NCBI RefSeq assembly: GCF_023243045.1
Contig: NZ_JALKFX010000013.1
Location: 1-64,000, forward strand
Origin: Frankia sp. AgB32
Lineage (GTDB): Bacteria; Actinomycetota; Actinomycetes; Frankiales; Frankiaceae
DNA length: 64,000 nt
Direction of reading: 5' to 3'
The translations under genes and the position numbers were made by a program. The notes under the pieces were generated by a model that did no database searches, was not told the DNA's origin, and saw nothing but the letters and a program-made list of their open reading frames with translations. This document shows, piece by piece, positions 4,239 to 24,277 of this stretch; the stretch's first letter is position 1; each line of letters begins with the position of its first letter.

Positions 4239-7200
4239 TCAGGTGGTTTCGCGGAGCATTTCGGCGCGCAGTCGGGCCAGGGCCTCGTCGCGGGCCGGGT
4301 CGGTGATGATCCGGTAGGCGCGCTTGCGGGCGGCCTCCTTGACGGCCTGCTGGAAGTCCTGGTTGTCGAAGTAGAGCTTCATGAAGTCCTCGTTCTTCCC
4401 GGCGTTCTCCGCGACGATGTCGTCGAGGCGGCCGTCGGCGACCTGGCCGAAGCGCGCCTCGTCGTTCATCAGCGCGACCTGCTGCATCTGGGTGTTCTCG
4501 ACCAGGCTGGCGACCTGCTGGAAGAGCAGGATCTGGTCGGAGGTGCCCAGGCTCAGGCCGAAACGCTCGTTCAGGTCGGTGATGACGTCCGCGAGCCGGA
4601 CCGTCTCCGGTTCGATGTAGCCGCCGCCGTCGGCGGCGTGGCCGCGGACGACTTGGTCGCCGGACGGTGCGAGCGACACGTCATGGTGACCGGTGAACTC
4701 AAGCCGGTAGTGCGACAGATCGGCGTCGCCGATGTCGACAGCCGTCGCGGCCCGGCCCGGCAGGCGGCGCAGCAGGATCCGGCCGTACTGGTAGAGCCGT
4801 TCGAGTGTCGCGTCGCCCCAGTCGATGACCTGTGCGAGCAGGCTGTAGGCCCGGCAGTATTTCTGCAGCGCGTCGCGGAACTCCTCCTGCTCCGCCACGG
4901 TCGGCAGCGCCTTGAAACGGTCGATCGCGGGGTCGAGCAGGCGGTGCAGCTCGGCGTGCAGCTTGTTCTCCGCAGCCTTGGGCATCCGGTCCGGGTCGGC
5001 TGACCCGAGCACCCGCATGAACGCCTCCAGCTCGGCGACGTCCAGGATCTGGAAGTCCATCACCTCCTGCTGCTTGCGGTAGAGCAGGTTCGCGTCGGGC
5101 TGCTCGGTGAGCGTGCTCTCGAACCAGGGCTTGAACGAGTTCTGGATGTCCTCGGCGGCGTTGACGAAATCGACGATCCGCACGTCGTCCTGGGATTTCA
5201 ACGGGTGGGTCCGGTTCAGCCTGGAGAGGGTCTGGACGGCGGCGACGCCGGTCAGCGGCTTGTCGACGTACATCGCGCACAGCAGCGGCTGGTCGAAGCC
5301 GGTCTGGTACTTGTCGGCGACGACGAGGATCCGGTACTCCTCCTGGTTGCGCGCCGCCGCGTCGGGGTCGTCAGCCTTCGTGTAACCGAACCGTTCCGGG
5401 AGCCGACCCTCCGGAAAGCCGTTGATTTTCGACTCGGTGAACTCGTGGCCGCTCTCCTCGTCGGTCAGCGAACCGGAGAACGCGACCAGCGGGCGGCAGT
5501 TCGCCAGACCCTTGTCATCGACGTACCGGCGGATCGCCTGGTACAGGTTGAGCGCCTGCTGCCGGCTGTCGGTGACGACCATCGCCTTCGCCCGGCCGCC
5601 GAGGCGGCCGGCGATGTTCGTGTGGAAGTCCTCGACGATCAGCTTCGCCTTCTGCGCCGCCGACTCCGGATGCGCCTCGACGAGCTGGACGAGCTTGCGC
5701 CGCGCCTTCTTCGTCTCGACCTCCGGGTTGGAGATCTCCGAGTCCTGCTGCGCGACGGCGTCGCTGGACAGCCGCCACATCGCGTCGTAGGTCAGGTAGT
5801 TCGCCAGGACGTCGAGGATGTAGCCCTCGTCGATCGCCTGCTGCATCGAGTACACGTGGAACGGCACATACAGCGGCTTGCCGTCCTCGTCCAGACGGTC
5901 CGGGTCGAGGGTGCCGAAAAGCTTCAGCGTGGCGGACGTGGGAGTGGCGGTGAAGGCGAAGTACGACAGGTTCGGCTGCCTGCCGCGGACCCGGGTCAGG
6001 TAGGTCGCCTCGTCCTCGTCGGGCTCCCGCTGCGCCTTCGAGCCGATCGCCTGCTTGAGCTTCGTGGCCTGCTCACCGGTCTGCGACGTGTGCGCCTCAT
6101 CGATGATCACCGCGTAGCGCTTCGAGCCCAGGCCCTTGCCCGCGACCTTGTCGAGGATGAACGGGTACTTCTCCAGCGTCGAAATGATGATCTGCGACGT
6201 CGAGTCCGTCAACGCGGCCGCGAGCTGGCTCGAATCCTCGTCGATCTTCTTGACGACCCCGGGCGTGTGGTCGAACTGGTAGATCGTGTTCTGGAGCTGC
6301 TGGTCGAGCACGAGCCGGTCGGTGATGACGACGACCTTGTCGAACACCTTCTGGTTGTCCACGTCGAACAGGGTCGACAGGCGATGCGCCAGCCAGGCGA
6401 TCGTATTCGACTTGCCCGAGCCGGCGGAGTGCTGCACCAAGTAGTCCTGGCCGGCGCCCTGCTCCTGGGCATGGCGGACCATCGCCTGGACGGCGTGCCA
6501 CTGGTGGTAGCGCGGGAAGATCCGTCCCCGCTCGTGGACGCTCCGCTTCGAGCCCTTCTTCTGGTCCTTGGCGTCGACGTGCACGAACCGCTGCAGCATC
6601 TCCAGCCAGTTGTGCCGGCTCCAGACCTCCTCCCACAGGTAGGCGACCCGATAGGAGCCCTCCCTGGCCTCCGGGTTGCCGGCGGCCCCCGACTCCCCCG
6701 GGCCGTTCGTGCCCAGATTGAACGGCAGGAACCGGGTGTCGGGGCCCGTCAGCCGGGTCGTGACGAACGCCCTGTCCGGATCGACGGCAAAGTGCACCAG
6801 GGCACGCTTCGCGAAGAACAGCTCCTTCGGATCCCGCCGCCGGTACTGCGCGACCGCGTCCTCGGCCGTCTGCCCGGTCATTCCGTTCTTCAGCTCGATG
6901 GACGCCACCGGCAACCCGTTCACGAACAACGCCAGGTCGACGGACTCGTTCGGATTCTTCGCGCTGAAACGAAGCTGCCGGGCCACGGTCAGAACGTTGG
7001 CGTCGTACTCCTTGAGCGCGTCGACCGCCAGCGTGTGCCCAGGCCGGAAGTACGCCAGCTCAATCTGCACCCCCCGATCCCGCACCCCCTGCCGCAGAAC
7101 GTCCAGCACCCCCCGCTCGTCGATCTGTGCCGCCACCCGCTGGCAGAATTGCCCGTGCGCAAGCTCCTTGGAACCGTAGAGCGCAACAAGCCGATCCCAG

Positions 7201-7364
7201 CTCTTCTGCTGCGTCGCCCCGATAAACCGAACCAGCTCAGCAGTATCCAGCCCAAGCCCAGCATCAAACCCAAACGTGGGCTGCCCCGCCTCCCACCCAT
7301 GACCATGCAGTTCCTGCTCGACCCGAGCCTCAAAGGCATGCTCCGTATGCATCCCCGGCGTCAT
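4239..7364 (-). CDS. hsdR: type I restriction endonuclease subunit R (HsdR)
   Basis: The 1041-residue protein has the full HsdR layout. The N-terminal PD-(D/E)XK-type nuclease shows NESVDLALFVNGLPVASIELKNG. Motor lobe 1 has Walker A SAGSGKSN near residue 315, DEAH in IIDEAHTSQTG near 420 and the FAFTATPT motif III. Lobe 2 has KYQTGFDQPLLCAMYVDKPL and QTLSRLNRTHP. It acts as ATP-dependent translocase and nuclease in the HsdR2M2S complex. The ATG start overlaps the hsdS stop by 4 nt (ATGA), which fixes the start and implies translational coupling. Length and motifs are normal for the family, so the subunit looks functional. Confidence 0.96.
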   Translation of the reverse strand: MTPGMHTEHAFEARVEQELHGHGWEAGQPTFGFDAGLGLDTAELVRFIGATQQKSWDRLVALYGSKELAHGQFCQRVAAQIDERGVLDVLRQGVRDRGVQIELAYFRPGHTLAVDALKEYDANVLTVARQLRFSAKNPNESVDLALFVNGLPVASIELKNGMTGQTAEDAVAQYRRRDPKELFFAKRALVHFAVDPDRAFVTTRLTGPDTRFLPFNLGTNGPGESGAAGNPEAREGSYRVAYLWEEVWSRHNWLEMLQRFVHVDAKDQKKGSKRSVHERGRIFPRYHQWHAVQAMVRHAQEQGAGQDYLVQHSAGSGKSNTIAWLAHRLSTLFDVDNQKVFDKVVVITDRLVLDQQLQNTIYQFDHTPGVVKKIDEDSSQLAAALTDSTSQIIISTLEKYPFILDKVAGKGLGSKRYAVIIDEAHTSQTGEQATKLKQAIGSKAQREPDEDEATYLTRVRGRQPNLSYFAFTATPTSATLKLFGTLDPDRLDEDGKPLYVPFHVYSMQQAIDEGYILDVLANYLTYDAMWRLSSDAVAQQDSEISNPEVETKKARRKLVQLVEAHPESAAQKAKLIVEDFHTNIAGRLGGRAKAMVVTDSRQQALNLYQAIRRYVDDKGLANCRPLVAFSGSLTDEESGHEFTESKINGFPEGRLPERFGYTKADDPDAAARNQEEYRILVVADKYQTGFDQPLLCAMYVDKPLTGVAAVQTLSRLNRTHPLKSQDDVRIVDFVNAAEDIQNSFKPWFESTLTEQPDANLLYRKQQEVMDFQILDVAELEAFMRVLGSADPDRMPKAAENKLHAELHRLLDPAIDRFKALPTVAEQEEFRDALQKYCRAYSLLAQVIDWGDATLERLYQYGRILLRRLPGRAATAVDIGDADLSHYRLEFTGHHDVSLAPSGDQVVRGHAADGGGYIEPETVRLADVITDLNERFGLSLGTSDQILLFQQVASLVENTQMQQVALMNDEARFGQVADGRLDDIVAENAGKNEDFMKLYFDNQDFQQAVKEAARKRAYRIITDPARDEALARLRAEMLRETT

Positions 7365-8599
7365 GCGGCTCCGTCCAGTTCACGCCCGGTCGCGACTTCG
7401 AGCCGCCCAGTCACCGCAGCCGCGATTACCGCTTGACGGCGCTCCGCAAGAGCAGCTATCTGATTGAAGAGCCGCGCGTTCAACTCACTCACCGCTTTGA
7501 GTCGACCATCAATCCTCTTGACAAGCTCACGCTGTGTCGGCAGGTCCGGCAGCGGCACACGGAAGTCACGAATCTTGCTGCTGCTTGTTGATGCGAGGTT
7601 TGTAGTCTTGTTGCCAGTGCTTTCGAAGTACCGTCGCGCTCGCGATGCCCGCGTGAGCAACGCCAGGTACTCAGGCTCTATCACACGAAGGTCCGGCCGC
7701 ACGGCGAAGACATGATTCTGATGTAGGCACTCCGAAATCTCTCCGCGCCAAACAGTCCCACGACCGAGCTTGTCAAGATCTCCACCCTCTGTCATCAGGA
7801 CGTCTCCGATCTGCAGGCGCGATGTGGCCACGGTCTTACGCGGTACCGTGATCTCAGCGACCTCACTAAGATCGACATAGCCAACCTGCACATTGGCGAC
7901 CCGCAAGTACGGCAGCGTGACGACGTCGCCGTCGTTCTGACGTCCGCTGTCAACTGTCACGCCGGTCTGGACGAAGGCCAAGTACCCAAGGCGGACAGTC
8001 GGGACGAAGCCTGGTCGACCGATATACTCGTCGATCAAACTCAGAGTCAGCTCATCAAGCAGTTCCCGCTGTCGAAGGCGCTGCGAGACGAGTCGACCGA
8101 TGCGGGCGGTCTCGGCGTCGAGGAAGTCGGCGATGCGGCGCTGCTCGTCGAGTGGCGGTCGAGAGAACTGGAGGTTCCCGACCTGTTCGGCATTCAGGTT
8201 CGCCTGAGTGTTACTTCGCGCCTGCTCGATGAGGCGCGGTCGCAGCGCGACTAGCGCATAGCGAAGGAACCGTGAGTCAGTATTGCCATCGACTCGAAGG
8301 CCAAGAATCGCCTGGTTCCAGGCCGCCGGAACTTCCAGCCACGCAGTATGCCCGAGACTGGCGTACATGCTGAAAAGGATCGTCCCAGGCTCACCGATCT
8401 TCAGCCGCGATGCGCGTATGCCATCGGCAGATACACGCCGTGTGGTGGTGATGACCGAGTCAACGGACGACATGTCCCCGATCGCTACCCAGGCATAGCC
8501 GCTGTCACCATCGGACCAATAACTGGGCTCGTCGACGGACGGTGTGCCACCTGCCGTGAACTGAGCGACTCTTTTGAGCGCAACCGTCGACCAGGTCAC
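7361..8599 (-). CDS. hsdS: type I restriction specificity subunit S (HsdS)
   Basis: The 412-residue protein starts VTWSTVALKRVAQFTAGGTPSVDEP at a GTG that overlaps the hsdM stop (GTGA). It has two target-recognition domains. The first ends at QVGNLQFSRPPLDEQRRIADFLDAETARI, followed by a conserved helix. The second is of the LGYLAFVQTGVTVDSG type and ends at LPDLPTQRELVKRIDGRLKAVSELN and a second helix, as in bipartite HsdS proteins. It sets the recognition sequence of both the methylase and the nuclease. The open frame continues far upstream through hsdM in another register, but only this part has family similarity. Confidence 0.95.
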   Translation of the reverse strand: MTWSTVALKRVAQFTAGGTPSVDEPSYWSDGDSGYAWVAIGDMSSVDSVITTTRRVSADGIRASRLKIGEPGTILFSMYASLGHTAWLEVPAAWNQAILGLRVDGNTDSRFLRYALVALRPRLIEQARSNTQANLNAEQVGNLQFSRPPLDEQRRIADFLDAETARIGRLVSQRLRQRELLDELTLSLIDEYIGRPGFVPTVRLGYLAFVQTGVTVDSGRQNDGDVVTLPYLRVANVQVGYVDLSEVAEITVPRKTVATSRLQIGDVLMTEGGDLDKLGRGTVWRGEISECLHQNHVFAVRPDLRVIEPEYLALLTRASRARRYFESTGNKTTNLASTSSSKIRDFRVPLPDLPTQRELVKRIDGRLKAVSELNARLFNQIAALAERRQAVIAAAVTGRLEVATGRELDGAA

Positions 8600-10590
8600 G
8601 CCGTCACCTCGCCGAGGAGCTTCTGGATCTGGGCTTCCAGGTCCTTGAGTTCGGCGTCGATCTCGGCGAGGGGCCTTGGGGGGGTGTAGACGTAGAAGTG
8701 GCGGGTGAAGGGGATCTCGTAGCCGACCTTGGTTTTTTCCTCGTCGATCCAGGCGTCGGGGACGTGCGGGGTGACCTCGCGGGTGAAGTAGGTGTGGATG
8801 TCCTCGTCCAAGGGGACGTTTTCGAAATCTCGCAGGTCCGGGTCTGGGATCGGCTTGCCCTTGTGGAGCTGGACCTCGCCTTCTGGGTCGGAGACGGCGA
8901 CGGCGTTCCAAAAGGCTTTCAGGTGCGCCGCGGTGCCGGGCAGGCTCGCTCCGCCGGCCATAGCGGCGGCCAGCAGCTCTGACGTGGCCTCGTCCTTGGT
9001 TCGCCAGACGGAGCCGATCGCGTCGTGCAGGGCCTCGACCAGCTTCTGCCGACCGTCCCACTTGGCGAGTGCCTTCGCCTCGGTCAGGGCGAGCAGGGTG
9101 TCCTCGGTGATCTCGAAGCGTTGCTTGAGTGGCCGTTCGACGGTGATGCGATGGTAGCCGAAGTCCCGCGTCCCGAAAATCTTCACCTTGCCGTGGTCCG
9201 GGTTCTCCGGATCGCCGGCAACCTCCAGCGCCCGGACATACAGCTTTGATACGTGGTCGATCTGGGCGTCGCTGATCTGCTTGCGCTTGTCGCCGAGGGA
9301 CTTGCGCATCTTCACCGACTGGTCGCGGGCGTCCAGCAGGATCACCTTGCCGGCGAGCTTCGCCGGCTTGCGGTTGGAGAGGATCCAGAAGTAGGTGGAG
9401 ATCCCGGTGTTGTAGAAAAGCTGGTCGGGCAGGGCGACGATGCCTTCGAGCCAGTCGTTCTCCAGGATCCAGCGCCGGATGTTCGACTCGCCTGACTCCG
9501 CGGCGCCGGTGAACAGCGGCGAGCCGTTGAAGATAATCGCGATCCGGGCACCCTTGCCCTCGACCCGCTCCATCTTCGAGATCATGTTCTGCAGGAAGAG
9601 GAACGACCCGTCGTTGATCCGCGGCAGGCCGGCGCCGAAGCGGCCCGCGTAGCCGAGTTCGGCCTCCCGGTCGACGTCGTCCTTGACCTTCTTCCACTCC
9701 ACCCCGAACGGCGGGTTGGCGAGCATGTAGTCGAACCGGCGGCCGGCGAACCGGTCCTGGCTGAACGAGTTGCCGAGCTTGATGTCGCCCTGCTGGTCGC
9801 GCAGCAGCATCTCCGCCTGGCAGATCGCCCACGACTCCGGGTTGAGTTCCTGGCCGTAGAGGAACACCTGCGCGCCGGCGTTGAGGGACCTCAGGTGGTC
9901 AGCGGCAGCGGTCAGCATACCTCCGGTCCCACAGGCCGGGTCATAGATGTTGATCACCTGTCCAGGCCCGGCGATGACGTCTGCGTCGGCGTCGGGAGCT
10001 ACCAGCAGGTTGACCATGAGCTTGATGACTTCACGGGGCGTGAAGTGCTCACCGGCGGTCTCGTTCGAGTCCTCCGCGAACTTGCGGATCAGGTGCTCGA
10101 ACACGTAGCCCATGTCGTGGCTCTTGAGCTTGTCGAGCTCGTCTATCTGCGCGAACCGGCTGACGACCAGGTATAGCAACTTCGCGTCGGCCAGTCGGGC
10201 GATGGTCTCGTCGAACCGGAACCGATCCAGCACCTCGCGGACGACGGGCGAAAAGCCGTTGACATAATCCCGCAGGTTCTTCGCGACCACCGATTTGTTT
10301 GTCGGGTCGGAGGCGATCGTGGCGAAGTTCTGCCGGGAGACGTTGTAGAACGGCCGGCCCGCGGCGCTCTCCAGCGGCTTCTGCCGGTTCGTCAGACTCG
10401 CGGGCAACGCGGCATCGCGGTCTCGCACGGCCTGCCGGGTGTCGACCATGACCGCGTCGAGTCGCCGCATGAGCGTGAACGGGAGGATCACGGCGCCGTA
10501 CTCGTGCCGCTTGTAGTCGCCGCGCAGGAGGTCGGCCACCGACCAGATGTCGGCGGCCATTTTCGAGTGGCTGGGCCCCGGGGAAGTCAC
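8596..10590 (-). CDS. hsdM: type I restriction methyltransferase subunit M (HsdM)
   Basis: A 664-residue N6-adenine methyltransferase. The N-terminal helical HsdM domain begins at IWSVADLLRGDYKRHEYGAVILPFTLMRRL. The SAM motif DPACGTGGM is near residue 217 and the catalytic NPPFG near 290. Both are intact, so this is the active modification subunit. Its GTG start overlaps the stop of the upstream methyltransferase-like gene by 4 nt, with GAGGAG 5 nt before it. It needs HsdS for target recognition. The C-terminal part (residues about 560-664) is typical of the larger HsdM class that ends in a coiled tail (EIDAELKDLEAQIQKLLGEVTA). Confidence 0.96.
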   Translation of the reverse strand: MTSPGPSHSKMAADIWSVADLLRGDYKRHEYGAVILPFTLMRRLDAVMVDTRQAVRDRDAALPASLTNRQKPLESAAGRPFYNVSRQNFATIASDPTNKSVVAKNLRDYVNGFSPVVREVLDRFRFDETIARLADAKLLYLVVSRFAQIDELDKLKSHDMGYVFEHLIRKFAEDSNETAGEHFTPREVIKLMVNLLVAPDADADVIAGPGQVINIYDPACGTGGMLTAAADHLRSLNAGAQVFLYGQELNPESWAICQAEMLLRDQQGDIKLGNSFSQDRFAGRRFDYMLANPPFGVEWKKVKDDVDREAELGYAGRFGAGLPRINDGSFLFLQNMISKMERVEGKGARIAIIFNGSPLFTGAAESGESNIRRWILENDWLEGIVALPDQLFYNTGISTYFWILSNRKPAKLAGKVILLDARDQSVKMRKSLGDKRKQISDAQIDHVSKLYVRALEVAGDPENPDHGKVKIFGTRDFGYHRITVERPLKQRFEITEDTLLALTEAKALAKWDGRQKLVEALHDAIGSVWRTKDEATSELLAAAMAGGASLPGTAAHLKAFWNAVAVSDPEGEVQLHKGKPIPDPDLRDFENVPLDEDIHTYFTREVTPHVPDAWIDEEKTKVGYEIPFTRHFYVYTPPRPLAEIDAELKDLEAQIQKLLGEVTA

Positions 10591-12368
10591 AGGTTCTCCT
10601 CGTGCGTCGGCGTCGTCGGTGCAAGCCGGTCGGGGGTCAGGGTCCCGGCCGTCAGCCCGTGCAGGGTCTGGTCGATCACGGTGGTGCTGAGCCTGGCGAG
10701 CGTTGTCAGCGCCGCGCGCAGGTCGGACAGGCGCCGGAACTCGGCGCCGTAATGGCGCTGCTCGGCGATCGAGAGCCGGGGGATCCGGCAGCGGCGCAGG
10801 TCCTCGCGGCCGAGCACGCCGATTGTCCTCGGGATCGGTACGGCCTCGACCTCGGGCCGCAGGAACATCGCCACGAAGTCGGGGTCGAGCCGGGCCCGGT
10901 CCAGTTCGACCACGTGGGTCGTCATCCCACCGGTCCGCTCCTCGCCCGTCGCCGCGAGAACGCCCGGAGCCCGCGGCCAGACGAGGACGTCGCCGGCGTG
11001 CGGCGTCGTGCCCCGCAACCTGATCGTCACAGCGCCCGCACGTTCGAGCTCCGCGAGCGTCACGTAGGCGAAGTCGTCCCGGACGTGGGCCGCCGCATAC
11101 CGCGGCAGCCCGGCGCCGAGCCGGGCGTAGATCGCTTCGAGCTGCCCGGCGATCCGGGCGATGTCGTCGGCACCGGCCTGCGCCTCGGTGGTGACATACC
11201 GGGAGGGCAGGATGTTGGCCTCACCGTCCTGGAGCAGCCGCGCCCGGGTCACCGCCCGAGCCGGCACCGGGCCGGGCCGGGCCCGCCCCGCGCCGCCCGA
11301 CGCCGCCCCGGCTGCCAGGCCGAACAGCTGCCGCCACTCCCCGAACTGGTGCGGCACCGCGGCCATGTCGGCGGCGGCGAAGTCGACCAGGACGACCGGC
11401 TCGTCGTCCTGGTCGCCGCGCGGGCGGCGCAGCACCCACAGGCAGGCCTCGCCGGCCGCGGTGCTCATCTCGGCCGGTAGCGCGATCACCGCACGCAGCG
11501 CGCCGCCACCAATCATCAGCTGCCGGATCGTCTGCCCGGACGGCGAGACACAGGCCCGCGGCGAGACGGCGATGACGGCGGTGCCGCGCGGGCGCAGGTG
11601 GGCGTAGCAGTGCTGCACCCAGGCCAGCTCGCCGTCGCGGGGCTCCGGGCGGCCGAACTCCCAGCGGCGGTCGGTCGCCAGCTCGTCCGCCGGCCAGCCC
11701 GGCCGGTCGAACGGTGGCTCGCACACCACCGCCGCCGCCCGCCCGAGCAGCTCGGTGAACCGGTTGCCGCGCAGCGAGTCGCCGAGGCGGACGTCGTACG
11801 GCCCGGCCAGCGGATGGCCGCGCAGGCCGAGGGTGGCGCTGCGGGCCAGCCGCTCGTCGTTGTCCTGGCCGAACAGCCGAACCCGCTGCTCGAACCGGTC
11901 CGCGGCGGCCAGCAGCAGGGTGCCGTCGCCGCAGGCCGGGTCGAAGACGACCGGCAGGTCGTCGGCGGTGGCGAACAGATCGTCACCACCCGCGCTGGCC
12001 GCGGTCGTCGGTGGCAGCAGCGAGACGAGGACACGGGCCAGCCGCTGCTCGGCCTCGACGTCCCGCTTTGCCTGCTCGACGAACGCGTCACGGGTCGACC
12101 AGCCACCGGTCGGGCCGTCGAGGGCCTGCGTTCCGGTCTCCGTCCGGCCTGCCTTCGCGAGCTGCTCCGCGCGACCGGAGTGTTCCAGCCAGTCCGCCAC
12201 GGCGGCCCAGCGAAACGTCGGGTTGGTGTCGTTGCCGCCGACGGGGCTGGGGAAGGCGTCGTAGCGCCGGCGCCAGTTCGACACGGCGGCGCGGCCGACG
12301 CCGATCCGCCGCGCGATGGCGGCAGCCGTCAGCTCTTCCTGCCCGTCGAACTCCACATGCCGGACCAT
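10587..12368 (-). CDS. HTH plus N6-methyltransferase-like protein with degenerate catalytic motif (EPPF)
   Basis: First gene of the restriction operon, 593 residues. Residues 10-35 form a helix-turn-helix (ELTAAAIARRIGVGRAAVSNWRRRY). Residues 100-350 form an N-6 DNA methylase fold with an intact SAM motif DPACGDGTLL (143-152). The motif IV position reads CEPPF (216-220) instead of NPPF/DPPY, so the base-flipping Asn/Asp is replaced by Glu. The C-terminal 200 residues resemble an HsdS target-recognition half (EERTGGMTTHVVELDRARLDPDFVAMFLRP, then GREDLRRCRIPRLSIAEQRHYGAEF). It may be a DNA-recognition or regulatory partner of HsdM rather than an active methylase. The start is the ATG at 12368, which has no clear ribosome site. 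Confidence 0.85.
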   Translation of the reverse strand: MVRHVEFDGQEELTAAAIARRIGVGRAAVSNWRRRYDAFPSPVGGNDTNPTFRWAAVADWLEHSGRAEQLAKAGRTETGTQALDGPTGGWSTRDAFVEQAKRDVEAEQRLARVLVSLLPPTTAASAGGDDLFATADDLPVVFDPACGDGTLLLAAADRFEQRVRLFGQDNDERLARSATLGLRGHPLAGPYDVRLGDSLRGNRFTELLGRAAAVVCEPPFDRPGWPADELATDRRWEFGRPEPRDGELAWVQHCYAHLRPRGTAVIAVSPRACVSPSGQTIRQLMIGGGALRAVIALPAEMSTAAGEACLWVLRRPRGDQDDEPVVLVDFAAADMAAVPHQFGEWRQLFGLAAGAASGGAGRARPGPVPARAVTRARLLQDGEANILPSRYVTTEAQAGADDIARIAGQLEAIYARLGAGLPRYAAAHVRDDFAYVTLAELERAGAVTIRLRGTTPHAGDVLVWPRAPGVLAATGEERTGGMTTHVVELDRARLDPDFVAMFLRPEVEAVPIPRTIGVLGREDLRRCRIPRLSIAEQRHYGAEFRRLSDLRAALTTLARLSTTVIDQTLHGLTAGTLTPDRLAPTTPTHEENL

Positions 12369-12886: not shown

Positions 12887-15370
12887 ATGACCGACATGGA
12901 TCTGCCTGAGCCGCGCGTTCCGCACGGGGAGAGTCCCACCTCCGCGCCAGAGCCGGCGCCGGCGGTCAGGGCGACGCCGATCGCCGAGCTGGCGGCGGCG
13001 CGGCTGGCCGCGGCGGCACTGCCCGAGTCGGTGAAGGCCGTACTGCGCGAAGCGTCCGACGCGGTCGAGAGGCCGGCGGCGAGTGCGATGGGCCAGATCT
13101 GGCTGGAATCGATCACCGTCGCCGGCTACCGCGGCATCGGCGCCCCGGCCAGGCTGTCGCTGCCCGCCGCGCCGGGCGTCACGCTGGTGGTCGGGCGCAA
13201 CGGTTCCGGGAAGTCGAGCCTGGCCGAGGGCGCCGAGACAGCCTTCCTCGGCACGAACACCCGTTGGCAGCGCCAGGATGACTCCCGTCGTGGCGCCTGG
13301 CGCAATCGGCACGAGCTCACCCGCCGGCCGCGGATCGATCTGGCTCTCACGGTCGGCGGCGGTCCGGCGACGCTGACCCGCACCTGGCCGGGCGACGACT
13401 TCACGAACTCCGACGGCGTGTTCCAGCGCCGTGGCCAGCCGGCCGTGCCCGCCGCGCAGGCCGGCTGGGCACGGGCCGCGGCCGAGTACCGTCCCTTCCT
13501 CTCCTATGCCGACCTGGGTCAGTTGATCGACGACAAGGCGGTCCGGCAGTACGACATCGTCGACAAGATCCTCGGTCTCGGCTACCTCACCGCCGTCGAC
13601 GGCCTGCTCAAGGCCGAGCAGAGCCAGCACACCGCGGCGGTCAAGGCCGTCAACAGCGGGCGGGCCACACTCACCGCCGCGCTCGAAGCGCTGCTCCTCG
13701 ACCTGCCCGAAGAGACCCGCGCCGACGCCGCGCTGAAAGCCGTGGCAAGGAAGCCCGGTCCCGACCTTGCAGCGCTCGACCGCCTCCTGACCAACCTGCC
13801 CTCGGCGCAGGACGGTGACCTCGCCGAACTGCGCCAGCTCGCCGACCTTCAGGGACCCGACCTCGACCTGGTCGACGAGGCGGTGCAGCGGCTGCGCGAC
13901 ACCCTCGCCGCCGCCGCGGCTGTCACCGGCACGAACGCCGAGGACGCCTCGCTGCGCGCCGAGCTGCTCTCCCAGGCACTGCGGCACCGCGACCGGCACG
14001 CGGGCAGCGAGGCCTGCCCGGTCTGCGGCACCGAGCAGGTCCTCGACAACGCCTGGGCGGACCGGGCGGCGGCGCAGGTCACCGCGCTGCTCGACGAGGG
14101 CCAGGCGGTCCGGACGGCGAACGCACAGCGGCGGCTGGCCGAGACCGGGCTGAAGGCGCTCATCGTTTCGCCGCCAGCGGTCCCGCCCGCGCTCGCCGCG
14201 GTGTGGCAGGCCTGGGAGGCGTGCCGAGCGCGCACGGACCTGGCCGCGCTGGCCGACGAGACCCTCGGCACGGCGCGGACGCTGGCGCAGGCGTGTTCCA
14301 GCGCCCGCGAGCAGGCCCGGGTCCTGCTGGCGGAGCGTGACGACCGGTGGCGTCCACTCTTCGCCAGCCTGCAGATCTGGACCGCGCAGGCCCGCGCGGT
14401 GAACGCGACCAAGGCACGCAGGAGCGACCTGAAGAAAGCGCGCGACTGGCTCGACGCACTCATCCGGGACCTGCGCCAGGAACGGCTGGCGACCTTCGAG
14501 GCCCAGGCGCAGGAGATCTGGGCGCAGCTGCGGCACGAGAGCAGCGTCAGCCTCACCAGGGTCGGCCTGGACGGCAAGGAGACCTCGACGCTGCGCCGGC
14601 TGATCCTCGACGTCTCCGCCGACGACGCCGACGCCTCGGCGCTCGCCGTGATGAGCCAGGGCGAACTGCACGCGCTCGCGCTGGCACTGTTCCTGCCGAG
14701 GGCCCGCACCGCCGACAGCCCGTTCGGCTTCCTTCTCATCGACGACCCGGTGCAGTCCATGGATCCCGCCAAGGTCAACGGACTCGCCCAGGTGCTCTCC
14801 GATCTGGGCAGCCAGCGGCAGATCGTCGTGTTCACCCACGACACCCGCCTCCAGCGGGCGTTCACCAGCCAGGGTCTGCCTGTCACGATCCGCAAGGTCG
14901 AGCGGGGGAAGGCATCGAAGGTTGAGATCGAGGACGCGCTCGACCCGGTCAAGCAGGCGCTCAAGGATGCCCGCGGCTTTGCGCTGGGCAGCAGGAAGCT
15001 GCCGGCGGCGGCGCGGACTCATGTCCTGCCCGGCCTCTGCCGGATCGCGCTGGAAAACGCTTTCACCGAAGCCGCCTGGATCCGCCACCACCAGGCCGGC
15101 GGGGCCGAACCGGTCTTCGACGCCGCCCTTTCCGACGCGGAGAAACTCACAAAGGTCGCCGCCCTCGCCTTCTTCGGCGACGCCAGGAGATCCGAGGACG
15201 TCTACCGCGAGCTGAAGGACCGTTGTGGTAGCTGGGCAGTCAGGATCGTCCAGGACTGCCAGAAGGGCGCCCACCCCGACGGCGCCCAGATCGACGACCC
15301 CAACCGCTTCGTCGAACTCGTCAAGAGCCTCGCCGACGCGGTCCGCAGGCCGGACCTCGCTGCCCGCTGA
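12887..15370 (+). CDS. Rad50/RloC-like SMC-type ATPase with CPVCG zinc hook
   Basis: The 827-residue protein has Walker A GRNGSGKSS (103-111), a long middle with CPVCG at 377-381 in the zinc-hook position, a signature-like MSQGELHALAL, Walker B FLLIDDPVQSMD (615-626) and a switch His (FTHDTRL). This is the layout of Rad50-type ATPases and of RloC. The C-terminal domain has Arg719-x3-Glu723 (RIALE) and His796 (KGAHPD), which recalls the Arg-Glu-His triad of PrrC/RloC anticodon nucleases, although the spacing of 77 residues is larger than in PrrC. RloC genes are typically linked to type I restriction loci, as here. The ATG has GGGGGA just upstream. Function as an RNase is an inference. Confidence 0.8.
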   Translation: MTDMDLPEPRVPHGESPTSAPEPAPAVRATPIAELAAARLAAAALPESVKAVLREASDAVERPAASAMGQIWLESITVAGYRGIGAPARLSLPAAPGVTLVVGRNGSGKSSLAEGAETAFLGTNTRWQRQDDSRRGAWRNRHELTRRPRIDLALTVGGGPATLTRTWPGDDFTNSDGVFQRRGQPAVPAAQAGWARAAAEYRPFLSYADLGQLIDDKAVRQYDIVDKILGLGYLTAVDGLLKAEQSQHTAAVKAVNSGRATLTAALEALLLDLPEETRADAALKAVARKPGPDLAALDRLLTNLPSAQDGDLAELRQLADLQGPDLDLVDEAVQRLRDTLAAAAAVTGTNAEDASLRAELLSQALRHRDRHAGSEACPVCGTEQVLDNAWADRAAAQVTALLDEGQAVRTANAQRRLAETGLKALIVSPPAVPPALAAVWQAWEACRARTDLAALADETLGTARTLAQACSSAREQARVLLAERDDRWRPLFASLQIWTAQARAVNATKARRSDLKKARDWLDALIRDLRQERLATFEAQAQEIWAQLRHESSVSLTRVGLDGKETSTLRRLILDVSADDADASALAVMSQGELHALALALFLPRARTADSPFGFLLIDDPVQSMDPAKVNGLAQVLSDLGSQRQIVVFTHDTRLQRAFTSQGLPVTIRKVERGKASKVEIEDALDPVKQALKDARGFALGSRKLPAAARTHVLPGLCRIALENAFTEAAWIRHHQAGGAEPVFDAALSDAEKLTKVAALAFFGDARRSEDVYRELKDRCGSWAVRIVQDCQKGAHPDGAQIDDPNRFVELVKSLADAVRRPDLAAR

Positions 15371-15420
15371 TCCACTCGTTCACAATCCATCCCCGTCTCA
15401 CCGCCGACCGGGAGAAACCC

Positions 15421-15810
15421 GTGAGCACGCCACCTGTCGACACCACCGGCGCCACGATCAACGAACTGCTCCAGACCGCCGAGCTGCTGCTCGCCGGCCG
15501 CCTCCAGGCGACGCTCGCCGCCCGCCACCGCGGCGCCGCCCTCGTCCTGCGCACCGCCCTGGAGATCGCCGTCGACGCGGCGCTCGCCGCCGCCGAGCCG
15601 GGGCTGTCCACCCCGAACATGGCCGCCAAGCTCCACTGCCTGAGCCACTACAGCACCCCCACCGCCGCCCGGCGGGCCCGCCGGGCCTGGTCCCACCTGT
15701 GCGTCGCCTACCACTACCACCAGTACGAGATCGGCCCCACCAGATCGCAGGTCCAGGCCTGGCACGCCGAGGTCTCCACGCTGGCCACGTCGCTGGTGCG
15801 CCGTCCATGA
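15421..15810 (+). CDS. small HEPN-like helical protein, partner of the Rad50-like ATPase
   Basis: A 129-residue all-helical protein starting at a GTG after GGGAG. It has Arg44-x3-Glu48 (LRTALEIAV) in the first long helix and RRAWSHLCVAYHYHQYEI at 87-104, where several His follow an Arg. This pattern is seen in HEPN domains, which use Arg and His residues for RNA cleavage or for toxin/antitoxin pairing. It follows the ATPase by 50 nt on the same strand, so the two are probably co-transcribed. I recall similar short proteins next to SMC-like ATPases in other actinobacteria, but I have no name for them. The HEPN assignment is inferred from the pattern only. Confidence 0.65.
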   Translation: MSTPPVDTTGATINELLQTAELLLAGRLQATLAARHRGAALVLRTALEIAVDAALAAAEPGLSTPNMAAKLHCLSHYSTPTAARRARRAWSHLCVAYHYHQYEIGPTRSQVQAWHAEVSTLATSLVRRP

Positions 15811-16296: not shown

Positions 16297-16806
16297 TTGG
16301 CGTTGGGCAGCCGGCGGCTGTCCTCGGTCAGTCTGACGCAGCGGTTCGGTGGATCGGTCGTCGCGGCGGTGGCGCTTGTCGCGTTCGGGGTGTCGGGCTG
16401 CTCGGATTCGGACGGCGACACCACGACCGCGGGTGCGAGCCGGTCCGCGGTCGAGGTTCCCGCGACGATCGCCGCCACGGCGACGATCCCGGCGCAGCCG
16501 GCGCCGACGGATAGCGCCACGCCGCAACCCGCGGCGGCCAGCGCCGCGCCGGAGCCGACCGCCTCCGACGGCCTGATCACGGTGGCCAAGGCCGACATCG
16601 AAGCTGCCCTGGCACGAGACCTCAAGGCCCAGACCGGCGAGGAGTTCTCCGTCGACTGCCCCGGCGACCTCGTCGCGACGGCCGGCACGCGGGTAGTCTG
16701 CACAACGGTCGTGCCCACCGGCGAGGTGTACAACGTCACGATGACGGTGACCTCGGTCGCGAACGGGCGTCTTAATTACTCCATGGAGGCCTCCCCCGCC
16801 AGTTGA
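16297..16806 (+). CDS. DUF4333-type lipoprotein
   Basis: A 169-residue protein. It has a positively charged start, a hydrophobic stretch (GGSVVAAVALVAFGVSGCS) and a lipobox Cys at about residue 35, followed by a Thr/Ala/Pro-rich linker. The C-terminal 80 residues match DUF4333: an initial helix VAKADIEAALARDL, then SVDCPGDLVATAGTRVVCTT with the paired Cys, and YNVTMTVTSVANGRLNY. It should be anchored on the outer face of the membrane. The start is a TTG with AGGAG 10 nt upstream. It lies between two defence systems but has no known link to them. Its function is unknown. Confidence 0.8.
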   Translation: MALGSRRLSSVSLTQRFGGSVVAAVALVAFGVSGCSDSDGDTTTAGASRSAVEVPATIAATATIPAQPAPTDSATPQPAAASAAPEPTASDGLITVAKADIEAALARDLKAQTGEEFSVDCPGDLVATAGTRVVCTTVVPTGEVYNVTMTVTSVANGRLNYSMEASPAS

Positions 16807-16982
16807 TGCCGCGAGGAACCCGATGCGCCCGCACCGGGCCCCTCTTCGACGCCGCCCTGTCCGCATCCGCTCGTCCACGTCATGACGCGGTCGAACTCTC
16901 TGGTGCTATCGCCGGTGGCGGAGTGTAGATATGAGGACGCCGGATTTCTCATGGGAGCCTGGTGCGGGTGGCGGAGGTGCGG

Positions 16983-18620
16983 ATGTCGAGCGGTCAGGTG
17001 TCAGGTACGGTCTCGCGGTTCGGCCCGTTCACACATGTCACGACGGAGAAAGCCGAGCTGTATCGGGCAATCATGCGGACGTTTATGCGCGCTAAGCGTC
17101 GCTTCAACGTCCATCTGCGTCCTGAGGATGTCATCGAGATGCTCGCGAAGGAGCCCGCCGCCGCCGGCGGGCTGGCGGTCCGGGAGGTCGACGCGGAGCT
17201 GCGCAGCCTCGAAGGCTGGGGAAACCTGCGTGGTGATCCGGACACCAGCCGGGTCACCACCGTCGAGGACTTCAACCGCCCCCGATTTCTCTATCAGCTG
17301 ACCCCGGCCGGCGAGGCGGCCGAGGCGGCCCTGGAGACGTTCGACGAGGCGCTCGGGCGGCGCGGCGAGCTGCAGACCGTCGCCCTGTCCGACATTCACA
17401 GCCAGCTCCTCGCGCTCCTGGCGGTGCTGGCGCGGCCCGAGGTCGACGCGGCGAAGGCGCACCAGCTCCTGCGCGACCTGACCGGGGTCTTCCGTGGACT
17501 GACCGACAACGCGCAGGCGTTCATGGGATCGTTGCAGCGCACCATCGACCTGCACGATGCGGATCTCGACGTCTTCCTCGCCTACAAGGAACGGCTCGTC
17601 GACTACCTGCAGCGTTTCATCCAGGACCTCGTCGTGACCTCGGCGCGCATCGTGGAGGTGCTCCGCGAGATCGAGAAGCACGACCTGACCGGCGTACTGC
17701 TCGCGGTGGCCGAACGGGAGGCGTGGGACGCGGCGCCCGGCATCGACGCCAGCGCCGGACCGGACGACACCCTCGGCGGCACCCCTCCCCGTGGCGGGGA
17801 TTCCGGCGACAGCGTCGTCTCCGCCGGGTCGGGTGCGGCCGGTGAGCGGCTCGCGGTGTGGACCGAGCGGTGGGAGGGCCTGCGGCGCTGGTTCGTCGGC
17901 GACCGGCTTCATCCACCGCAGGCCCGGCTGCTGCGGGAGCGGGCGCGTGCGGCGGTGCCGGCCCTGCTGTCGGTGGTGCTGGCGGTCAACGAGCGGCGCT
18001 CGGGCCGCAGCGACCGGTCCGCCGACTTCCGCGCCCTCGCGCTCTGGTTCGCGCAGGCGCCGAGCGACGACGATGCCCACCGGCTCTGGCGAGCCTGTTT
18101 CGGGCTCGCCCCGGCTCGCCACCTCACGATCGACGCCGCGACCCTGGAGGCGCGGGCGACCAGCCCGGTGCCGCCGTCGACGCCATGGCACGCGGCACCG
18201 CCCATCCTGGTCGACGTCCGCCTGCGTCGCACCGGGCGGTACGAGCGTCGCGGCGCGCCGAACCGCATTCGCGACCGCGCCGCGGAGCGCCGGCTGCTCG
18301 CCGAACGGCTCGCGGTCGAAGAGGAGATCGTCCGGGCCGCGCGGCGCCGGCTCGCCACCGGCATCCCGATCCGCCTGTCCGAGCTCGCCGAGCTCGACGA
18401 TCCGTCCTTCCGGCTGTTCCTCACCCTGCTCGGCGACGCGCTCGCCCGCAGCCGACCCGGCCAGCCGTCCATCGACACCACCAGTGCCGACGGGACGCTG
18501 TCGATCGCGCTGACCGCGACCGCCGACGCAATGGTGGCGACGATCCCGACCAGCGCCGGGCTGTTCACCGGTCCGGACCACATCCTGGAGATCCACGACC
18601 TGCTGGCGGAGCCGGCGTGA
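16983..18620 (+). CDS. jetA: Wadjet subunit JetA (DUF2397/TIGR02677 type)
   Basis: A 545-residue kleisin-like subunit of the Wadjet plasmid-defence complex. It begins MSSGQVSGTVSRFGPFTHVTTEKAELYRAIMRTFMRAKRRFNVHLRPEDV, a winged-helix region, and continues with a helical middle (LLALLAVLARPEVDAAKAHQLLRDLTGVFRGLTDNAQAFMGSL). Both are features of the TIGR02677 family as I recall it. The ATG at 16983 is chosen over a GTG seven codons upstream because GGAGG lies 5 nt before it. The stop overlaps the GTG of jetB by 4 nt, so the operon is translationally coupled. It should bridge the JetC heads. Confidence 0.88.
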   Translation: MSSGQVSGTVSRFGPFTHVTTEKAELYRAIMRTFMRAKRRFNVHLRPEDVIEMLAKEPAAAGGLAVREVDAELRSLEGWGNLRGDPDTSRVTTVEDFNRPRFLYQLTPAGEAAEAALETFDEALGRRGELQTVALSDIHSQLLALLAVLARPEVDAAKAHQLLRDLTGVFRGLTDNAQAFMGSLQRTIDLHDADLDVFLAYKERLVDYLQRFIQDLVVTSARIVEVLREIEKHDLTGVLLAVAEREAWDAAPGIDASAGPDDTLGGTPPRGGDSGDSVVSAGSGAAGERLAVWTERWEGLRRWFVGDRLHPPQARLLRERARAAVPALLSVVLAVNERRSGRSDRSADFRALALWFAQAPSDDDAHRLWRACFGLAPARHLTIDAATLEARATSPVPPSTPWHAAPPILVDVRLRRTGRYERRGAPNRIRDRAAERRLLAERLAVEEEIVRAARRRLATGIPIRLSELAELDDPSFRLFLTLLGDALARSRPGQPSIDTTSADGTLSIALTATADAMVATIPTSAGLFTGPDHILEIHDLLAEPA

Positions 18621-19888
18621 CGAACCCGCGCCCCCGCACGTCAGCCGCCCGCAGGGACTCGTCGGGGGCGATCGTCGACGCCCTGGACGCCCAGCTCCTC
18701 GATGAACGCCGCCGGGCGATGCGGGCCCTCCTGCGCCGCCCGTTGCTGACCGCCCACGGCGACGACGCGGCGGCCTTCCGCCTCGTCCGCGGACATCAGA
18801 CCTGGCTGCGGGCCTGGTTCGCACGGGAGACAGGCTGGTCGCTGCGCGTCGACCCCGAGGTGGCCAGGCTCGCGAAGCTGCCGGCGGACCTCACCGACGG
18901 CACCCGCCCGGCCACCGCCGGCGCGTCACACCAGCCGTTCAGTCGCCGCCGCTATGTGCTGCTCTGCCTCGCCCTCGCCGGCCTGGAGCGCGCGGAGAAG
19001 CAGGTCACCCTGGGTCGGCTGGCCCAGGACGTGATGCTGGGTTGCGCCGACCCGCGGCTCGCCGAAGCCGGGATCAGTTTCGGTCTGGACAGCCGCGAGG
19101 AACGCGCGGACCTGGTTGCGGCCGTCCGTGTGCTGCTCGACCTCGGGGTCCTGCGCCGCGTCGCCGGCGACGAGGCCACCTTCACCTCGGGAACCGGCGA
19201 CGCCCTGTACGACCTCGACCGTTCCGCGCTCGCCGGGCTGCTGGTCACCCGGCGCGGCCCGTCGACGGTGGCCGCCGCCGCGTTCGAGGACAGGCTCGCC
19301 GGTGCCGTGGAGGAGCTGGTCACGGACACCGACGACGCGCGCAACCTCGCCCGCCGCCAGGCGCTGACCCGGCGGCTCCTGGACGACCCCGTCGTCTACT
19401 TCGCCGATCTGGACGCCGACCAGCTGTCCTACCTGACGAGCCAGCGCGCCGCGCTGACCCGACGGATCACGGAGGCGACCGGCCTGGTCGCCGAGGTCCG
19501 GGCGGAGGGCCTCGCGATGGTCGACCCCGACGGCGACCTCACCGACGCGAGGATGCCGGAGGACGGCACCGACGGCCATTCCGCCCTGCTGCTCGCCGAG
19601 TACCTCGCGCGCGGCGGCGCGCGTCTCGGCACCGCCGAACCGATGCCCGTCGCCACCCTGCACGCGCACATGCGGGAGCTGATCTCGCAGCATCGCACCC
19701 ACTGGCGCAAGGGCGTGACGGAGCCTGAGGCGGAGATCGGTCTGGTCGACCGGGCGCTCACCCGGATGGCCGCCCTGGGCCTGCTGCGACGACGCGGTGA
19801 CACGGTCATCGCGCTGCCCGCGCTGAGCCGGTTCGCACTGGGTGAGCTGCGGGACACCACCGACACCGAGCAGGGGAGCCTGGTGTGA
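18617..19888 (+). CDS. jetB: Wadjet subunit JetB (DUF2398/TIGR02678 type)
   Basis: A 423-residue winged-helix protein, the KITE-like partner of JetA. Typical segments are RRRAMRALLRRPLLTAHGDDAAAFRLVRGHQTWLRAWFARETGW near the N-terminus, RRYVLLCLALAGLERAEKQVTLGRLAQDV, and a C-terminal winged helix (LVDRALTRMAALGLLRRRGDTVIALPALSRFA). The GTG start overlaps the jetA stop, and its own stop overlaps the jetC start (GTGTGA). The open frame extends several hundred codons upstream through jetA in another register, but that part is a shadow. Confidence 0.88.
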   Translation: MTNPRPRTSAARRDSSGAIVDALDAQLLDERRRAMRALLRRPLLTAHGDDAAAFRLVRGHQTWLRAWFARETGWSLRVDPEVARLAKLPADLTDGTRPATAGASHQPFSRRRYVLLCLALAGLERAEKQVTLGRLAQDVMLGCADPRLAEAGISFGLDSREERADLVAAVRVLLDLGVLRRVAGDEATFTSGTGDALYDLDRSALAGLLVTRRGPSTVAAAAFEDRLAGAVEELVTDTDDARNLARRQALTRRLLDDPVVYFADLDADQLSYLTSQRAALTRRITEATGLVAEVRAEGLAMVDPDGDLTDARMPEDGTDGHSALLLAEYLARGGARLGTAEPMPVATLHAHMRELISQHRTHWRKGVTEPEAEIGLVDRALTRMAALGLLRRRGDTVIALPALSRFALGELRDTTDTEQGSLV

Positions 19889-22800
19889 GCGAGTCCAACG
19901 GGAAGCCAGCCACCCCCGGGTCACTGCCCGAGCCGACGACGAGCCGGTGGCAGCCGCTGCGCGCGGGGCTCGTGGACGTCTTCCTCTACGACGAGGAGGA
20001 GTTCCACTTCCGCGATGGCAATCTGCTCCTGCGCGGCAACAACGGTACCGGCAAGTCGAAGGTGCTGGCGATGCTGCTGCCGTTCCTGCTCGACGGCGAG
20101 GTCGCGGCTCACCGGGTGGAACCGGACGGCGATCCGAAGAAGCGGATGGAGTGGAACCTGCTCATGGGCGGGCGCCACCCGCACCCGGAGCGGCACGGCT
20201 ACAGCTGGCTGGAGTTCGGGCGTGTCGACGCCGCCGGAGTCGCGAGCTACCGCTCGATCGGGGCCGGGTTGAAGGCGGTCGCGGGCCGCGGCAGTGTCAC
20301 CACCTGGTTCTTCGTCGCCGACGGGCGGGTCGGCATCGACTTCGCTCTCGTGGGGCCGACCCGGACCGCGTTGACGAAGGACCGGCTGGCCGACGCGCTC
20401 GGGACCGGTGGGCGTGTCTTCGACCAGGCGTCCCGGTACCGGCGGGCCGTCGACGAGGCGTTCTTCGGCCTCGGCGAGGAGCGCTACGACGCCCTGGTGA
20501 ACCTGCTCATCCAGCTCCGTCAGCCGCAGCTGTCGAAGAAGCCGAACGAGCGGGCCCTGTCCGACGCGCTCACCGAGGCGCTGGCCCCGCTCGACCAGGC
20601 GGTGATCGCGGACGCGGCCGAGGCGTTCCGCGGCCTGGAACAGGAACGGTCCGACCTGCTCGGATTCGAGGAGGCGCACACCGCCGCCGCCGCGTTCCTG
20701 GAGCACTACCGTCGGTACGCCCGCATCAGTGCGCGGCGCCGCGCCCGCGAGCCGCGTGCCGCCCAGTCGCTGTACGAGTCGGCGTCCCGCCAGCTCAGCG
20801 AGGTGAAGTCGGAGCGTGAACGGGCCGAGGGCGAGGCGGCGGAGATCGACCGGCAGGAAGCCGCGCTCGGCCTGCGGATCACGGAACTCACCGCGGAGCG
20901 GAACACCCTCGCCACCCGCCCGGAGATGGACCAGGGCCGCGAGCTGAGCATGCTCCGCCAGCGGGCGAACGAGCAGGAGGGGCTCGCGAACCGGGCTCGC
21001 GCCGAGCGGACGGCCGCCCTGCGGCAGCGGGACAGCTTTACCCGACGGGTCGCCGACGAACGCACCCGGGCGAACGGGACCACCGCGGCGTTGGAACGCG
21101 CCCGGGACACCGCGACGAGCGCGGCGCGCGACGCGGGCATTCTCGACGATCACCTGGCTGCCGTCGCGGCGCTGCTGCCCGCGGCTGGCGCCACGGCCGC
21201 AGCGGCGCTGGACACCATCCGGACGGCGCGCCAGGCGGCCGAGGACGTGGGCCGCCGCCGAGAGGAGGCCTCCAAGCACGTCGCCGGCCTGATCACGGGC
21301 GCCATGCGGGCGGAGGAGAAGGCCGGCGATCGGCGCCGGGAGACCGACGACGCGCGATCGGCCCTCGACGAGGCGGTCGAGGCAGCGGCGACGGCGGCCG
21401 CCACCCACGAGGCCGCCGCCGACGAGTTCATCGCCGCGATCCGCCGCCACCTCGACGCGGCCGAGCAGCTGCGGCTGACCGACCTCGACCACGTGCTCGA
21501 CGAGCTGGCGGGCTGGCTGGACGGCTTCGACGGTCCGAGTCCGCTGCTCGCCGCGGTGACGTCGCGGGCCCGCGAGCTCGAGAACGAGTTCGGCGCGGCA
21601 GATCAACGGCTGGTGATCGAGATCCGTGAGGCGCGGGCAAGGACGAAGGTCCTGACCGCTGATCGTCGCTCGCTGACCGACGGCGCGCGCGTGTCGCCCC
21701 CGCCGCCGCACACCCGCGCCGCGAGCCGCGACGGCCGACCCGGCGCACCGTTGTGGCAGCTCATCGAACCGTTCAAGCGTGGCGAACGGACTGATGCGGT
21801 CGAGACAACCCGCGGGTCGGTACCACTGACGTCCGCCGAGATCGCCGGCGTGGAGGCGGCGCTGGAGGCGGCCGGGCTGCTCGACGCCTGGCTGTGCCCG
21901 GACGGCCAGCTCCTGTCCCCCGACACCCACGACGTGGTCATCCGCGTCGACGACGCGCGCCGGTCGGTGCCCCGCGGCGCCGCGCATCTCGGCCTGGTGC
22001 TGCGGCCGGCCGTTGACCGCTCCGACCCGGCCGCCGCTGCCGTCTCCGACGACACCGTCGCCGCCGCGCTCGCGAGCATCGGACTCGTGACCGACGCCGG
22101 GTCCGTCGACGCCAGCGACGCGGCGGACCCGGCCGACCCGGCTGACTCGGCTGATACCTGGGTCGCCGTGGACGGGCGCTTTCGTGTCGGGCGCCTGGCC
22201 GGCTCCTGGTCCAAGCCGGCGGCCCGCTACCTCGGGCACGCCGCCCGCGAGCATGCCCGCAGGACCCGGCTCGCGGAGATCGACGAGGAACTGGCGGACC
22301 TCGCGCGCCAGGTGGAGGGCCGCGAGGCCGACCGCGCGGAGCTGCGGCGGCGCAGGTCGGTGCTGGGTGGCGAGGTGACCGGGCTGCCGCCGGACACGGC
22401 GGTGCGCCGGGCGTTCAGCGACGCCCGGCAGGCGGACCTGGACCGTCGCCGGGCCGACGGGCTCCATCAGAGCGCGGCCCGGGCCGCCGAGGCCGCGCGG
22501 GAGGCGGCGCGACGGGCCGGTTCCGAACGGGACGAGACCGCCGCCCAGTTCGGTCTGCCCGTCGCCCTCGATGCCCTGGAGGAGATCAGGGGCGCGGTGG
22601 TCGCCTACCGGGTCGCGCTGTCGGGGCTGTGGCCGGCGGTCCGCGAGCGAGCCGATGCCATCGCCCAGCTGGCGCGGACCGAGCAGGACCTGAGCGAGGC
22701 TCAGGAGATCCTCGACGAACGCGAGGCCCAGCGGGTAGCGGCCGAGAAGGATCACCTGGCCGCGCGGACGGCGTTCGACACGAGGGAACGGACCGTTGGC

Positions 22801-24198: not shown

Positions 24199-24277
24199 CG
24201 GATCCGGTTCCTGTGCGGAGCGCCGACCTCGGGACGTGCGCCGATGACCGCGGAAACATCGTGACAGCGACCGTCCG

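Follow-up and report, generated by a model that had tools for sequence, protein, structure and literature searches.

A zinc-hook Rad50-like ATPase and its small HEPN-fold partner as a candidate two-component relative of RloC and PrrC in Frankia

What is the function of a Rad50-like ATPase gene and the small gene behind it, which lie next to the type I restriction genes of Frankia sp. AgB32? We addressed this question in the window, a stretch of 64,000 nucleotides from contig NZ_JALKFX010000013.1, for which a sequence-only reading had proposed a DNA-damage-sensing RNase toxin of the RloC kind with a HEPN partner. The interpretation that we favour, with a probability of roughly 0.6, is a two-component relative of RloC and PrrC, in which an ATPase gates a HEPN RNase that backs up restriction. 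That the two genes form an ABC-HEPN defence module of some kind is highly probable. The ATPase gene and the motifs of its head are as follows.

12887-15370, + strand: Rad50/SMC-type ABC ATPase, 827 aa, with a zinc-hook coiled coil and a helical C-terminal domain (open reading frame, Pfam, AF2 model)
13193-13219, + strand: Walker A GRNGSGKSS, residues 103-111 (nearly invariant in 46 relatives)
14015-14026, + strand: zinc hook C377-P-V-C380, within CPVCG (both Cys invariant in 46 relatives)
14654-14665, + strand: ABC signature SQGE, residues 590-593 (invariant in 46 relatives)
14732-14749, + strand: Walker B LLIDDP, residues 616-621 (I618-D619-D620-P621 invariant in 46 relatives)

Codon-position G+C gave a coding signal in both open reading frames of the module (12887-15370 and 15421-15810), whose closest relatives in our search are from Frankia. 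The CPVCG zinc hook and the intact ABC ATPase motifs that had been read from the letters were borne out by the alignment of 46 relatives, where the Walker B/D-loop IDDPVQSMD (residues 618-626) and the H-loop H651 are likewise invariant or nearly so. Among the Pfam families, SMC_N and AAA_21 scored above their cut-offs, and AAA_13 (PF13166) reached 26.4 bits against a cut-off of 36. The AF2 model of the ATPase (pLDDT 85.9) was superimposed by VIA-align on Rad50 (3qkt) with Z 27.0 and rmsd 3.7 over 324 residues, spanning residues 71-685; in the comparison with PDB structures, its Rad50/SMC-head matches covered only about residues 70-690. With the whole protein as query, Foldseek retrieved Rad50/SMC-like viral proteins from a viral structure library, a result that bears on the head and not on the tail. 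Parts of the ATPase showed weak similarity to the mad3 component of MADS in PADLOC (E 1.8e-17). The top PADLOC match was LmuB of Lamassu (PDLC03859, E 6e-22, residues 215-660), and the LmuB structures 9hqu and 9hqx were among the Foldseek matches. The LmuB similarities would suit a Lamassu-like arrangement, in which an LmuB-type sensor ATPase uses its tail for docking only and the effector RNase is the small HEPN protein by itself.

The C-terminal tail of the ATPase carries the residues that had been compared with the anticodon nucleases.

14936-15367, + strand: helical C-terminal domain, residues 684-827, probable RloC/PrrC-type HEPN domain (seven helices; beyond the SMC/Rad50 matches; collinear with the small protein)
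15041-15043, + strand: R719, putative catalytic triad (80/80 loci, 18/18 survey ATPases)
15053-15055, + strand: E723, putative catalytic triad (70/80 loci, 18/18 survey ATPases)
15272-15274, + strand: H796, putative catalytic triad (78/80 loci, 18/18 survey ATPases)

In the AF2 model, residues 690-827 form further helices that fall outside the span of the Rad50/SMC structure matches, and no Pfam family was found for this tail. The head matches in the PDB stop at about residue 690, and the tail appears not to belong to the SMC head. The Arg-x3-Glu...His pattern noticed in the letters proved real, with R719 conserved at 100%, E723 at 88% and H796 at 97% across the 80 loci. All three residues, whose lack of conservation had been named as a refuting result, were also retained in the survey; its 18 readable ATPases come mostly from other actinomycete families and, except for the window's own copy, were absent from the original 80-locus alignment. 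The ten losses of E723 (to A, T or G) are all found in one clade (L032, L033, L036, L037, L039, L042, L043, L045, L063 and L066), and H796 is missing in two loci. Across the 80 loci H796 is the last residue of a C-[QN]-x-G-[AS]-H motif, and 69-84 residues separate it from E723. The Rx4-6H catalytic motif is present in most HEPN families, not all; its arginine is absent from the tail, where a Cys (94%) sits five residues before H796 and is lost in distant relatives.

The gene behind the ATPase encodes the second component.

15421-15810, + strand: stand-alone HEPN-fold protein, 129 aa, obligate partner gene (AF2 model, VIA-align, 80/80 loci)
15550-15552, + strand: R44 of the partner (78/79 relatives, 21/21 survey matches)
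15562-15564, + strand: E48 of the partner (E in 70/79 relatives, D in 9/79; 21/21 survey matches)
15712-15720, + strand: H98-Y-H100 of the partner (H98 in 69/79 relatives, H100 in 73/79; 21/21 and 20/21 survey matches)

The window has an intergenic gap of 50 bases between the two genes, and the partner gene starts with GTG, about 6 bases behind a ribosome-binding-like ggag. The AF2 model of the partner (pLDDT 91.3) matched the HEPN protein AF0298 (2hsb) with Z 15.1 and rmsd 2.3 over 117 residues in VIA-align, followed by the HEPN domain of sacsin (Z 13.2) and HepT (Z 12.2). HEPN or HEPN-like entries made up nearly all of the top 24 rows, and the earliest clearly unrelated helical bundles appeared at Z of about 10. 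The Foldseek E-values were weak (best 0.09), and that list also consisted mostly of HEPN entries. Judged from its model, the partner has the HEPN fold, in agreement with the role of HEPN partner proposed for it from the letters. The motif reported for this protein was recovered as well: the Arg-x3-Glu helix corresponds to R44-x3-E48, and the His-rich helix has H98-Y-H100-x-Y102-E103 at its end, giving a triad with the spacing R44-x3-E48-x49-H98. Conservation among the 79 relatives reaches 87-100% for R37, R44, H98, H100 and P106; R37, R44, E48, H98 and P106 are present in 21/21 survey matches and H100 in 20/21. As in the tail, the canonical HEPN Rx4-6H arginine was not found, since no arginine is conserved at 5-7 positions ahead of H98 or H100 in the 79 relatives or in the survey sequences. 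The partner belongs to no named family in Pfam, NCBIfam or PADLOC, its profile gave only chance matches to PDB sequences, and one annotated record lists the pair as an 'AAA family ATPase' and a 'hypothetical protein'.

The Lamassu-like arrangement gains from the partner, which has kept all of R, E and H at a spacing like that of RloC. However, neither the LmuA nor the LmuC model of PADLOC matched the partner family, the gene order differs in that the effector comes last, and the Walker B of the ATPase reads DD, not the E-to-Q change of LmuB (PMC10586767). Moreover, the ATPase tail bears a conserved triad of its own, and we consider this arrangement less likely than the two-component ABC-HEPN reading.

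Kinship between the two putative nuclease domains was evaluated by profile alignment. With the survey sequences added, residues 684-823 of the tail aligned with the partner from end to end at P 2.3e-4, as against 0.11-0.15 for coiled-coil controls; the score was 22.9, whereas 100 column-shuffled versions reached at most 15.2 and the reversed profile 10.3. R719 falls in register with R44, E723 with E48 and H796 with H98. The AF2 models have a corresponding helix layout, with a long second helix (707-736 in the tail, 32-58 in the partner) in which the triad Arg is residue 13 in both, and with the triad His at or just past the end of the fourth helix. Because the alignment pairs the triads of tail and partner residue by residue, the tail is probably likewise a HEPN domain. 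Neither tail nor partner alone gave a significant match to RloC C-termini (local P 0.04-0.16), and the best local register was offset from the triad. The whole ATPase matched RloC-like ATPases at E 9.7e-18 over residues 581-733, from the head into the tail, again with the tail register offset from the triad; the RloC-like query protein has no sequence relative in the PDB. Against the ABC-HEPN RNase reading we counted the missing Rx4-6H arginine, the long Glu-His spacing of the tail and the lack of a significant match to RloC C-termini, together with the loss of E723 in one clade and of H796 in two loci.

The two genes go together as a unit. From 407 relatives in genome contigs we kept 79 loci, 80 with the window, and a small gene directly follows the ATPase gene in 80/80 of them; in these related loci the two genes mostly overlap by 1 or 4 bases. 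One apparent absence of the partner (L074) was rejected, as the small gene is present there and had initially escaped detection. Of 396 Actinomycetota genomes, the small-protein profile matched in 21 and the ATPase profile in 19, and all 19 ATPases adjoin a small gene, which answers in the affirmative the question of co-occurrence raised for this pair. The two remaining small genes lie behind remnants of ATPase genes. In one locus (L085, genome G193) the small HEPN gene is retained after a 98-codon ATPase remnant, possibly a decayed module. About 5% of the sampled Actinomycetota genomes carry the module. The pairwise distances of ATPase and partner are strongly correlated (r 0.94). That the small HEPN protein is functionally unrelated to the ATPase and only shares its operon is compatible with the adjacency and with nothing more; the co-occurrence, found independently from either side, the matching divergence and the common triad make this barely credible.

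No relative of the module was found in 50,697 phage records, and the partner was absent from the viral contigs searched, which held three distant ABC proteins, one of them with an RloC-like tail. This protein, an 814-aa ABC ATPase (L139, 5935-8436) with 24% identity, has the same IDDPVQSMD head, a tail with an RloC-like triad (NLRMFVE...TSKHLHPD) and no small partner.

In the ten loci of the one clade, the loss of E723 coincides exactly with the substitutions H98K and Y102D in the partner. This co-change is suggestive of a shared site, but it represents a single event. We rejected it as proof of coevolution, with which it is merely consistent. The same co-change would also fit a toxin-antitoxin pair, in which RNase activity resides in the ATPase tail while the small HEPN protein is non-catalytic and inhibits the tail by sequestering it, as would the obligate co-occurrence with translational coupling and the partner's lack of the canonical HEPN arginine. 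In contrast, the partner's R44, E48, H98 and H100 match the tail triad in conservation, which is unusual for a mere inhibitor, and the co-change arose in a single clade; such a pair is quite unlikely.

The type I neighbours of the module were confirmed by profile matches.

10587-12368, - strand: N-6 DNA methylase with a helix-turn-helix (HTH) part, 593 aa, divergent from the module (PF02384, E 1.8e-23)
8596-10590, - strand: HsdM of type I restriction-modification (R-M) (PADLOC MTase_I, E 2e-251)
7361-8602, - strand: HsdS, start not fixed (PF01420, E 7.6e-22)
4239-7364, - strand: HsdR (PADLOC REase_I, E 1.2e-37)

This HsdR is the sole HSDR_N match in the genome. Restriction genes are found near the module in 71 of the 79 loci, namely type I genes in 58, GmrSD in 8 and McrBC in 5, with none in the other 8; these neighbour classes derive from BLAST clusters, each labelled after a representative, and kinship among the loci means that they are not independent events. 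After thinning to ATPases below 70% identity (n=24), type I genes remained in 15, GmrSD in 1, McrBC in 2 and none in 6. As a background, 46 HSDR_N matches per 100 genomes correspond to an estimated <1% of random 16-kb stretches. The module had been described as sited like RloC beside a type I locus. The hsd neighbours are real, but RloC itself is rarely linked to R-M loci (8/73; PMC2610378), and PrrC is the regular one in that position.

Other genes in the window deserve mention. The two methylase genes at 10587-12368 and 8596-10590 are consecutive, and paired methylases also occur in many related Streptomyces loci; the N-terminal HTH of the 593-aa methylase resembles mad1/mad2 of MADS. The gene that follows hsdR on the same strand (2436-4151) encodes a serine/threonine protein kinase carrying TPR-like repeats, and a related kinase lies near the pair in another locus (L072). 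Downstream of the module, a DUF4333 lipoprotein-like gene (16297-16806) separates the HEPN gene from a Wadjet locus (16962-25612), in which JetA (16962-18620) and JetC (19885-24198) were identified by PADLOC with very high scores; the gene at 24278-25612 encodes the DUF3323 and DUF2399 domains that JetD would be expected to have, and that at 18617-19888 is at the JetB place by position only. We concluded that this region of the window is a defence island. Many Streptomyces loci have, behind the pair, a gene for a large UvrD-like helicase (L007, 10935-14330) or for a DUF6119 protein (L027, 10961-12577), and these may be additional components of the module in such loci.

A house-keeping role, with an SbcC/Rad50-like DNA repair ATPase, an accessory subunit and no RNase, would account for the Rad50 head and hook and for the GO term double-strand break repair on one record. 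It fits poorly with the patchy distribution, the linkage to restriction systems and the extra HEPN-like tail accompanied by a HEPN partner, and appears very improbable.

In the two-component ABC-HEPN reading, the HEPN domain of the fused tail and the free HEPN partner would associate into one RNase. As a rule, HEPN RNases work as dimers whose subunits share one active-site cleft, and because of this we infer that the two HEPN units probably pair. The ATPase would hold this RNase inactive until, as in RloC and PrrC, its head and coiled coil encounter abnormal DNA, such as ends or breaks, or a restriction complex that has been disabled. The freed HEPN site would then cut cellular RNA, likeliest tRNA anticodon loops, and translation would stop, so that a phage that has passed restriction could not multiply. 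The RNase is probably active; tRNA is, by analogy with these nucleases, a possible rather than probable target, and DNA damage and R-M status are equally tentative candidates for the trigger. The wider proposal has slightly less than an even chance: a split ABC-HEPN system across Actinomycetota, in which an RloC-type HEPN fused to a Rad50-like sensor and a separate homologous HEPN combine into an obligately heteromeric RNase with one common active site, serving as a modular back-up to type I, McrBC and GmrSD systems. If the two-component reading is true, a two-component class joins the ABC-HEPN suicide RNases RloC and PrrC, so far single polypeptides. The split would also ease the study of how a DNA-sensing Rad50-like ATPase switches on an RNase, a long-open question for both, since separate genes allow the sensor and its partner to be expressed and mutated independently.

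Among the known systems, RloC is similar to the module ATPase in its Rad50-like ATPase with a zinc hook and DDP Walker B, its C-terminal Arg-x3-Glu...His and its length (658-897 aa). RloC is a tRNase that excises the wobble nucleotide and is under the control of zinc and DNA. Its motif is Arg-x3-Glu-x36-52-His, often with Ser before the His, and Ala at any triad residue abolishes activity and toxicity (Davidov and Kaufmann 2008, PMC2610378). Anantharaman et al. (PMC3710099) assigned the nuclease domains of RloC and PrrC to HEPN. The module is nevertheless not RloC proper: RloC is a single-gene system, whereas the module has a separate HEPN partner gene in every locus; the Glu-His spacing of 36-52 in RloC is exceeded in the ATPase tail, although the x49 of the partner fits it; the AAA_13 score is below the cut-off; and the module is mostly linked to R-M genes. 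PrrC of EcoprrI is an ABC-HEPN protein with an R-E-H triad inside a type I hsd locus, as in the window, and the module, being embedded like PrrC, is therefore plausibly guarded by an R-M enzyme. PrrC has 341-416 aa and lacks the zinc hook, whereas the module ATPase is twice as long owing to the hook/coiled-coil insert; PrrC also differs from the two-gene module, which adjoins McrBC or GmrSD as well. Lamassu and ABC-3C share the Rad50-like zinc-hooked class of ATPase through LmuB and differ in the points given above, the extra C-terminal domain among them.

HepT of the HEPN-MNT toxin-antitoxin systems has the same fold as the partner, with HxY at a comparable place in its sequence, but the partner has no adjoining MNT gene and no Rx4-6H arginine and is paired with an ABC ATPase. 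MADS has eight genes (mad1-mad8); among the neighbours scanned, the window offers the weak mad3 similarity of the ATPase and the mad1/mad2-like parts of the neighbouring methylase. In APECO1_4465 and ERFG_01251 an ABC ATPase is followed by HEPN, as in the module; the part of Anantharaman 2013 available describes these as fusions and mentions no free-standing HEPN partner. We found no description of the ATPase and small HEPN pair in the literature searched, which covered few subscription journals, and we would class the pair among the ABC-HEPN systems, as a new two-component form of them.
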